Source of the DNA: Candidatus Eremiobacteraceae bacterium
GTDB lineage: Bacteria > Vulcanimicrobiota > Vulcanimicrobiia > Eremiobacterales > Eremiobacteraceae
NCBI GenBank assembly: GCA_036511855.1
Contig: DATCBN010000077.1
Location: 1-39,718 of the forward strand
Direction of reading: 5' to 3'
Length of the DNA stretch: 39,718 nt
Shown: piece after piece, positions 3,754-31,936 of the stretch
How the letters are laid out: each line of letters opens with the position of its first letter
How positions within the stretch are numbered: the stretch's first letter is position 1
Translations under genes and position numbers: made by a program
The notes under the pieces: generated by a model
Database searches by the model: none
What the model saw: only the letters and a program-made list of their open reading frames with translations
What the model was told of the DNA's origin: nothing

Positions 3754-3759
3754 GTACTA

Positions 3760-3778
3760 GGGCAAGCATCGCTTGCCC
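3760..3778 (+). repeat. Dispersed palindromic repeat, perfect copy, GTACTA flank
   Basis: GGGCAAGC-ATC-GCTTGCCC, an 8-base inverted repeat with a 3-base loop, preceded by GTACTA. It lies between the divergent response-regulator and thpR genes, in the thpR direction. Confidence 0.95.
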
Positions 3779-3798
3779 AAATATGCGGATTTGTAGTA

Positions 3799-3817
3799 GG
3801 GCAACCATCGCTTGCCC
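3799..3817 (+). repeat. Dispersed palindromic repeat, one mismatch, GTAGTA flank
   Basis: GGGCAACC-ATC-GCTTGCCC, with one left-arm base changed. It is in direct tandem with the copy at 3760, with starts 39 bases apart, and ends 9 bases before the thpR ATG. It may displace or mask the thpR leader. Confidence 0.9.
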
Positions 3818-3826
3818 AAAAATGCG

Positions 3827-4402
3827 ATGGCCGTGAGACTCTTCGCCGCTATTCCGTTGGACGCCGGCGCGCGCACGTACGTCGCGACAGCACTCGATGC
3901 TCTCAAGCGAGAAGGCGCTCGCGCGCGATGGGTTCGGCCCGAAAATTGGCACGTCACAATAGCGTTTCTCGGCGAAGTCGCCGACGCGGGCCTCCCTGCG
4001 GTCATCTTGGCGTTCCGGTCTGTCGTTCAAAGTTCCGTACTAGGGCAAGCATCGCTTGCCCAGTCAATGATAAAACCTTTTTCGCTCCAGCTATCTAGTA
4101 TCGGCGCATTCCCGAATCTACTGCGGCCCCGCGTCATCTGGGTCGGCGGGCGCGAACCAGATCTCGCATTCGAGCGCGCCTCACTCGCGTTACGCACTGC
4201 CTTCGCCTCGCTGGGCTTTCGTTTTGACGACGCGGCAACGCCGCACGCGACGATCGGCCGCACGAATGGGTCCACGCCGCTGCGCGCTCCTCAGCTATCC
4301 GTCGAGTTTTCAATGCCGGTGACGCGGCTCGTGCTTTTTGAATCGGTACTCGGGCCTGCGGGCGTGCGATACCCCGAACGCGAAGAGATCATCCTCGGAT
4401 AG
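3827..4402 (+). CDS. thpR: RNA 2',3'-cyclic phosphodiesterase (2'-5' RNA ligase family)
   Basis: A 191-residue 2H-phosphoesterase. The two signature motifs are HVTIAFLG (His42, Thr44) and HATIGR (His140, Thr142), which together form the catalytic site that opens 2',3'-cyclic phosphates. I chose the ATG at 3827 (MAVRLFAAIPL) because it matches the family N-terminus; the frame stays open farther upstream only because it runs through a palindromic repeat. No Shine-Dalgarno site is visible. A copy of the repeat lies inside the gene in frame and encodes VLGQASLAQ at about residues 71-79, between the two HxT motifs. Both motifs survive, so the product is probably functional. The SIMPL-domain gene starts 23 bases after the stop. 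The cellular substrate of bacterial ThpR is not settled. Confidence 0.88.
   Translation: MAVRLFAAIPLDAGARTYVATALDALKREGARARWVRPENWHVTIAFLGEVADAGLPAVILAFRSVVQSSVLGQASLAQSMIKPFSLQLSSIGAFPNLLRPRVIWVGGREPDLAFERASLALRTAFASLGFRFDDAATPHATIGRTNGSTPLRAPQLSVEFSMPVTRLVLFESVLGPAGVRYPEREEIILG
4043..4061 (+). repeat. Palindromic repeat inserted in frame inside thpR
   Basis: A perfect GGGCAAGC-ATC-GCTTGCCC with the GTACTA flank, in the coding direction. It is translated as part of VLGQASLAQ. The extended flank GTTCC-GTACTA is shared with the copies in uvrA and at 19742. Confidence 0.95.
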
Positions 4403-14213: not shown

Positions 14214-15305
14214 TTACGTTCGATGGGCAAGCGTTGCTTGCCCTAATACAGGGTCGGCCGGTTCTGCGGGCTCGTTGACCGACATCGAATCGAACAGCGT
14301 GGAGCCGCGCTGGCTTTGCGCCAACTCGCCTTCCTGCTCTTCGTAGATCTCCGAGATCGACCGATTTGTGCTGATGCGCTTGATGGTCTCGGCGAGCATG
14401 GGCGCGACCGAGAGCACCTTGATCTTCTCGCCGCGGATCTCGTTCGGCACCGGGATGGTGTTGGTGACGATGACTTCCGCAATCGGCGACTCGATGAACT
14501 TTTTGGCTGCGTCACCGGCGAATATCCCGTGGGTGGCGCACGTGATGACCGAAACGGCGCCGCGCTCGAGCAGCGCTTCGGCCGCCTTGACGAGTGTGCC
14601 GCCTGTGGAGATCATGTCGTCGATGATGATGGCCGTCTTGCCTCTCAGGTCGCCGACGACTTCGCTCACTTCATTGACGTCCGGCCGCGGCCGGCGCTTG
14701 AAGACGATGGCGACGGTGGCCTGGAGCCTCTTCGCAAACGCTTCGGCGCGCGCCACGCCGCCGGCGTCCGGCGACACGACCACATATCCGGGTCCGATCA
14801 TCTTCTTTGAATTGATGAGGTGATTGGCAAGGATGTAGCTGGCGGTGAGGTTGTCGACCGGCTGATCGAAGAAACCTTGGATTTGGGCGGCATGCAGATC
14901 CACGGTCACGATGCGATCGGCGCCGGCCGTCACCAGAAGATTCGCGATCAGCTTGGCCGAGATCGGCTCGCGGCCTTTCGTCTTTTTGTCTTGCTTGGCG
15001 TAGCCGTAGTACGGGATGACGGCCGTGATGCGATAGGCCGACGCGCGCTTAAGCGCGTCGATCATCAACAGCATTTCCATGAGCGAGTCGTTCACGCCAC
15101 AGAGGCCGTCGGCCGACTTACATATGGACTGGATGACGAAGACGTCGGCGCCGCGCACATTTTCGTGGATCTCGATGCGCCGTTCGTCGTTGGCAAAGGT
15201 GGTGACGAGCGCCTTGCCCAGGCGCGTGCCCATCCGGGCGGCGATCTCCTCAGCCAATGCGGGGTTGGAGGTGCCTGAGAAGAGGACCGGTTTTGCCGTA
15301 GCCAT
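14214..15305 (-). CDS. prs: Ribose-phosphate pyrophosphokinase with repeat-derived C-terminal tail
   Basis: A 363-residue PRPP synthase making PRPP from ribose 5-phosphate and ATP, the PRPP used by PyrE. Landmarks: LFSGTSNPALAEEIA at the N-terminus, FVIQSICKSADG, the flexible-loop region YYGYAKQDKKTKGREP, VDLHAAQIQGFFD, and the PRPP loop AIIIDDMISTGGTL. A typical enzyme is about 315-320 residues, so about 40 are extra. The extension ends in VLGQATLAHRT, whose first eight residues are the palindromic repeat translated in frame. GGGAGAA lies nine bases before the ATG. It heads the minus-strand prs-rplY-pth group and is divergent from uvrB. Confidence 0.94.
   Translation of the reverse strand: MATAKPVLFSGTSNPALAEEIAARMGTRLGKALVTTFANDERRIEIHENVRGADVFVIQSICKSADGLCGVNDSLMEMLLMIDALKRASAYRITAVIPYYGYAKQDKKTKGREPISAKLIANLLVTAGADRIVTVDLHAAQIQGFFDQPVDNLTASYILANHLINSKKMIGPGYVVVSPDAGGVARAEAFAKRLQATVAIVFKRRPRPDVNEVSEVVGDLRGKTAIIIDDMISTGGTLVKAAEALLERGAVSVITCATHGIFAGDAAKKFIESPIAEVIVTNTIPVPNEIRGEKIKVLSVAPMLAETIKRISTNRSISEIYEEQEGELAQSQRGSTLFDSMSVNEPAEPADPVLGQATLAHRT
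14225..14243 (-). repeat. Palindromic repeat at the 3' end of prs, translated in frame
   Basis: On the coding strand GGGCAAGC-AAC-GCTTGCCC preceded by GTATTA, oriented with prs. It encodes most of the last residues (VLGQATLA) before the stop at 14214. Confidence 0.95.
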
Positions 15306-19734: not shown

Positions 19735-19760
19735 AAAAAATGGGCAAGCGATGCTTGCCC
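19734..19760 (-). terminator. Repeat-derived intrinsic terminator for the NHL lipoprotein gene
   Basis: On the minus strand the repeat hairpin is followed by A and seven Ts (A-run 19734-19740). It lies downstream of the NHL lipoprotein stop at 19806 and abuts the rhodanese stop. Confidence 0.55.
19742..19760 (-). repeat. Dispersed palindromic repeat, perfect copy
   Basis: GGGCAAGC-GAT-GCTTGCCC with TAGTACGGAAC on its right, so leftward. The extended flank GTTCC-GTACTA is shared with the copies inside thpR and uvrA. Confidence 0.95.
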
Positions 19761-19775
19761 TAGTACGGAACGACG

Positions 19776-28906: not shown

Positions 28907-31936
<3,030 letters not shown>

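Follow-up and report, generated by a model that had tools for sequence, protein, structure and literature searches.

The thpR gene of a Candidatus Eremiobacteraceae bacterium contains, between its two catalytic motifs, a copy of a short palindromic repeat that is translated with the rest of the protein, raising the question of what this repeat is, how it came to lie inside a conserved enzyme and whether the enzyme tolerates it. The window, meaning the whole stretch of 39,718 nt that was analyzed, corresponds to positions 1-39,718 of contig DATCBN010000077.1 in assembly GCA_036511855.1, a genome of 3.07 Mb in 112 contigs. The insert is very probably a RAYT-associated REP copy, of a kind spread by an IS200/IS605-type HUH tyrosine transposase, that is tolerated in a surface loop. 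Features in and around thpR are as follows, in window coordinates.

3827..4402, + strand: thpR, encoding an RNA 2′,3′-cyclic phosphodiesterase (LigT/2H family) of 191 aa (TIGR02258, PF02834, 5ldm).
3950..3958, + strand: first HxT motif (H42-V-T44), in invariant columns.
4244..4252, + strand: second HxT motif (H140-A-T142), with H140 invariant and T142 at 90% or above.
4028..4063, + strand: net 36-nt (12-aa) insertion relative to homologues, from the 27-homologue alignment, with ends uncertain by a few codons.
4032..4036, + strand: GTTCC flank, common to only two other exact copies and outside the general element.
4037..4061, + strand: REP element of 25 nt, consisting of the tag GTACTA (4037-4042) and an 8-bp stem with ATC loop (4043-4061).
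3754..3778, + strand: REP copy upstream of thpR with a half-arm copy before it, from the flank alignment.
3793..3817, + strand: REP copy upstream of thpR with a GTAGTA tag and one stem mismatch, from the flank alignment.

ThpR was assigned by its two HxT motifs, LigT fold and equivalog score: the protein scored 102.6 bits against TIGR02258 (cut-off 65.7) and 81.4 bits against PF02834, and the best solved match of its AlphaFold2 model (25 sequences) was E. coli LigT (5ldm, TM 0.79/0.86). In the frame 3827-4399, the REP copy is read as VLGQASLAQ at residues 71-79. The sequence-only reading had placed a repeat at about these residues, in frame between the HxT motifs, and the exact core at 4043-4061 and homologues without the peptide bear it out. 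Comparison was with 27 aligned homologues from the same class, and the peptide was absent from all 27; the difference was exactly 12 residues for 25 of them and 13 for the other two, and homologues with loops of equal length lacking the peptide were not found. The exact ends of the insertion in thpR cannot be fixed because ThpR of the closest relatives is only 53% identical. No clean DNA-level empty site for the thpR copy was obtained: the genus sisters were too diverged, and a scan of public genomes returned distant homologues only.

The ThpR model had a mean pLDDT of 93, while residues 71-80 averaged ~53 and were its only poorly ordered internal stretch, lying between a helix (53-65) and a strand (85-89). 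Column conservation was scored over 25 sequences; H42, T44 and H140 were invariant and T142 nearly so, in agreement with the earlier claim that the two catalytic motifs survive. In the model, the insert forms a loop at the surface of the 2H fold, with both HxT motifs kept. That the extra residues are instead a natural ThpR loop-length variant with a convergent match to the repeat, or an assembly error, deserves next to no credence: a loop carrying another copy, in uvrA, does vary in length in its family, but the thpR copy matches all 25 nt of a repeat with hundreds of copies, for which the chance expectation is ~0, and the 27 homologues lack the insert.

The repeat itself was defined from its core outward. 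Positions 4043-4061 form an exact 19-base palindromic core, GGGCAAGCATCGCTTGCCC, that can be written as the hairpin GGGCAAGC-ATC-GCTTGCCC, with an 8-bp stem and a 3-nt loop; its fold energy is -9.2 kcal/mol as single-stranded DNA (z = -5.5). The window held 37 matches with three or fewer mismatches against a shuffle mean of 0.02, corresponding to ~21 sites rather than 37 because palindromic sites count on both strands. Genome-wide, there were ~520 hairpin copies with two or fewer mismatches, against 1 for a reversed-pattern control. Alignment of 98 copies with their flanks defined a conserved 25-nt unit in which GTA(C/G)(T/G)A precedes the 19-base hairpin. Position -7 was a pyrimidine, G was very rare at +1, and sequence from -8 outward showed no strong conservation in this alignment. 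Gene-level and tag counts refer to 203 copies sampled from 1.26 of the 3.07 Mb (41% of the genome). The tag was GTACTA in 112 of these and GTAGGA in 45; GTAC was thus the main tag, and the GTAG tags comprised GTAGGA and GTAGTA subsets. A half-arm copy lay upstream of 37/203 copies. Like a REP, the element is a short (20-40 bp), high-copy palindrome that is mostly extragenic, as only 13/203 copies lay inside four supported genes, plus one at the prs end. REPs carry a conserved GTAG tetranucleotide, or a close variant of it, 5′ of the hairpin; the conserved tag at that place is here mainly GTAC. Opposite-orientation pairs, 23 of 84 close pairs, recall the inverted REP doublets of Pseudomonas (REPINs, PMC3116915), whereas here same-orientation tandem pairs prevail (61/84) and 60/203 copies are singletons; the commonest spacings were 41-42 bp. 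A second hairpin type, GTAGGA-GGGTGAGC-AAC-GCTCACCC, was mixed with the main REP in arrays (for example, L033:513-540).

The strength of the fold, which reaches -13 kcal/mol as RNA, raises the alternative that the copies are mainly RNA hairpins, acting as terminators or mRNA-stability elements, with the thpR copy modulating its message. In keeping with this, 57/203 copies were followed within 12 nt on their 3′ side by at least four consecutive T. However, a T run is missing at the thpR copy (CCCAGTCAATG), which also sits inside an open frame; both make termination at this site unlikely, and an RNA role leaves the linkage to RAYT genes, described below, unexplained. We consider it highly improbable.

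Copies elsewhere that are referred to below are the following.

19742..19771, - strand: intergenic REP copy with GTTCC, the second unit of a two-REP array (19742, 19776).
29705..29729, + strand: REP copy in frame in uvrA, read as VLGQASLAH, net +6 aa relative to two genus sisters.
14225..14249, - strand: REP copy with a GTATTA tag, giving the prs C-terminal residues VLGQATLAH, from the reading frame.
C4:124410-124770 (L041:4410-4770): nine-REP array in the gene for an ArsP-like permease, supported by Pfam/homologues.

The sequence-only reading had also pointed to GTTCC-GTACTA upstream of the thpR, uvrA and 19742 copies and suggested a mobile unit longer than the 19-base core. The shared string is correct, as GTTCC with an otherwise exact unit occurs in three copies genome-wide, all in the window (4032-4036, 19767-19771 and 29700-29704). 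The unit does exceed the core, by the 6-nt tag that most copies conserve, to 25 nt; it does not reach GTTCC, since GTTC(C/T) lies directly 5′ of the REP in only 5/203 sampled copies and sequence from -8 outward is not strongly conserved. Outer flanks compared across copies differ in most of them, and on these unconserved flanks GTTCC was rejected as an element end. Clustering of the three copies in the window is unusual, judged post hoc, because the window has ~4% of copies. As CGTTC(C/T) recurs between REPs in arrays, the three copies might have arisen by local spread of a spacer of such an array.

Two genes with a Y1_Tnp domain, on C109 and C4, were found in the genome. The C109 gene is intact and scored 95.5 bits against NF047646 (REP_Tyr_transpos, cut-off 80); its protein has a PDHVH (HUH) motif, with PDH-x-H conserved, and tyrosines in the expected region (GYYDRI) that are candidates for the catalytic residue. 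A phmmer search of the RAYT against the PDB gave no match, and a fold search with the model found as top structural match 4er8, the structure of a RAYT in complex with a REP hairpin (E 2.9e-8). By equivalog score, HUH motif and Y1 transposase fold, C109 encodes a RAYT (TnpAREP). The C4 gene scored 62 bits on NF047646 and loses its reading frame ahead of the C-terminal part. The apparent frameshift (L033:604-1070) could be real decay, an assembly error or a programmed shift. GTACTA REPs in inverted orientation lie on both sides of the C4 gene. Two GTAGGA REPs lie 3′ of the C109 gene, whose other side has degenerate copies. Both loci show the inverted arrangement of like REPs around a RAYT gene, the gene at C4 reading as frame-shifted. 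RAYT genes of related genomes (G009, G001, G002) are flanked by different hairpin arrays of their own, as REP-RAYT pairs are expected to be. G009 has three RAYTs and three hairpin types.

These observations suggest how the REP could have reached thpR. A RAYT encoded elsewhere in the genome, an IS200/IS605-type HUH enzyme, would act on single-stranded hairpin DNA and thereby spread the REP; that these particular RAYTs mobilized the copies is a proposal, and the single-strand mechanism is taken from PMC8266576, where enzymology of the tag, hairpin and cleavage is published. On entering thpR, the REP would have taken the orientation and phase in which it is translated as VLGQASLAQ, and the net length added is divisible by three. 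Rare coding insertions would survive if the frame is kept and the site is a loop or linker, and the thpR copy may have survived by falling in the 2H surface loop, where the catalytic histidines and threonines stay in place and the added peptide would be neutral. Some facts run against this explanation: the 25-nt unit falls 11 nt short of the net gain of 36 nt in thpR; the net gain in uvrA is only 18-21 nt; and the RAYT gene adjoining GTACTA copies reads as frame-shifted.

Coding copies in other genes were counted only where the gene was backed by Pfam or homologues. Codon-usage scoring of genes around every copy was dropped, as the model was too weak and missed thpR itself. Many long frames through REPs, at coaD, an ABC ATPase, a TonB-dependent receptor and an amidase, were stop-to-stop upstream extensions or antisense and were excluded. 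The class II ribonucleotide reductase has two REPs 36 bp apart in the linker before its zinc tail and is 25 residues longer than both sisters; the same gene (contig C15, L045:7400-11992) has an intein with a LAGLIDADG domain. The ArsP-like permease has nine in-frame tandem REPs, 42 bp apart, and is 110-114 residues longer than both genus sisters. In sister G001, the corresponding gap also contains a REP, just past the prs stop codon. All five carriers (thpR, uvrA, the class II ribonucleotide reductase, the ArsP-like permease and the prs end) are translated in one sense frame, VLGQA(S/T)LA(Q/H), even though the element is open in four of its six frames. With five genes, this shared frame is no more than suggestive: insertion may depend on orientation, or copies giving worse peptides may have been removed.

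The shared frame and the nine tandem copies in the permease also invite the explanation that the intragenic repeat is a coding module, kept for VLGQASLAQ because it benefits the cell through the carrier proteins, and PMC3733652 offers the speculation that REPs inside genes change repair proteins. Against this, the sites are loops, linkers or a terminus, homologues manage without the peptide, and the modeled ThpR insert lacks order. Five genes are few, the other open frames give Cys- or Pro-containing peptides that may be less tolerated, and the number of sampled copies in such genes (13/203 and the prs end) is small. A selected module is quite improbable on this balance, and a tolerated REP copy is the explanation retained.

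The REP-RAYT system was then placed among its relatives. Tagged copies numbered 465 in this genome, 51 and 74 in the two genus sisters and at most 2 in any of 58 other relatives, so by these counts the element is nearly confined to the genus. The sisters have mostly the GTAGTA type, GTAG being the rule in both, and the syntenic stretch of sister G001 has fewer REP sites, mostly at other places. The closest described systems are GTAG-tagged REPs with RAYTs (REPtrons), for example group 3 of Stenotrophomonas maltophilia (PMC8266576), which likewise combine a short tag with a perfect 8-bp stem and 3-nt loop, occur in hundreds of copies as arrays and inverted pairs, and include a RAYT flanked by the same hairpins. 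Here, in contrast, GTAC is the majority tag and the tag is longer by two bases (TA or GA) before the stem. GTAC is absent as a word from the survey PMC3733652. That survey (Di Nocera et al., 2013) describes in-frame REPs, single or tandem, in real genes from a number of bacteria, among them uvrA and further repair genes, and suggests that they serve as flexible linkers or loops; its passages on these genes do not mention thpR, class II ribonucleotide reductase or an ArsP-like permease. Rickettsia palindromic elements (RPE), palindromic repeats that also lie in frame in ORFs, are likened to the present element by description only, as given in the same survey, where CGTC-type repeats corresponding to RPE form a separate super-family.

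The base 5′ of the tag differed with the tag, the C:T ratio being 51:23 for GTACTA and 7:35 for GTAGGA (Fisher p = 8e-8, with half-arm copies excluded and array copies not independent). In one system, a change from GTAG to GTAC can redirect cleavage (PMC8266576). A simple guide rule drawn from that work, in which GTAC cuts at GT or GA, was tried and made no direct prediction of C at -7. A fuller scenario would have two REP populations sharing one hairpin, with GTACTA and GTAGGA tags, each beside its own RAYT; the genus-typical GTAG would have switched to GTAC and the new population expanded, the 5′ base (C for GTAC, T for GTAG) would be as expected if the tag steers cutting and insertion, and genic copies would have been kept only in the frame of a tolerated peptide. 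Taken as a whole, we regard this scenario as unlikely.

In-frame REPs in genes, uvrA included, are already known, as PMC3733652 attests; what stands out here is the majority GTAC tag, together with the way the base 5′ of the tag varies with it. The genome offers a RAYT/REP system in which GTAC is unusually abundant as a tag, along with clear examples of REP translation within conserved enzymes, and its GTAC and GTAG populations, on one hairpin in one genome, are a natural test of the tag-guided choice of cleavage site (PMC8266576).
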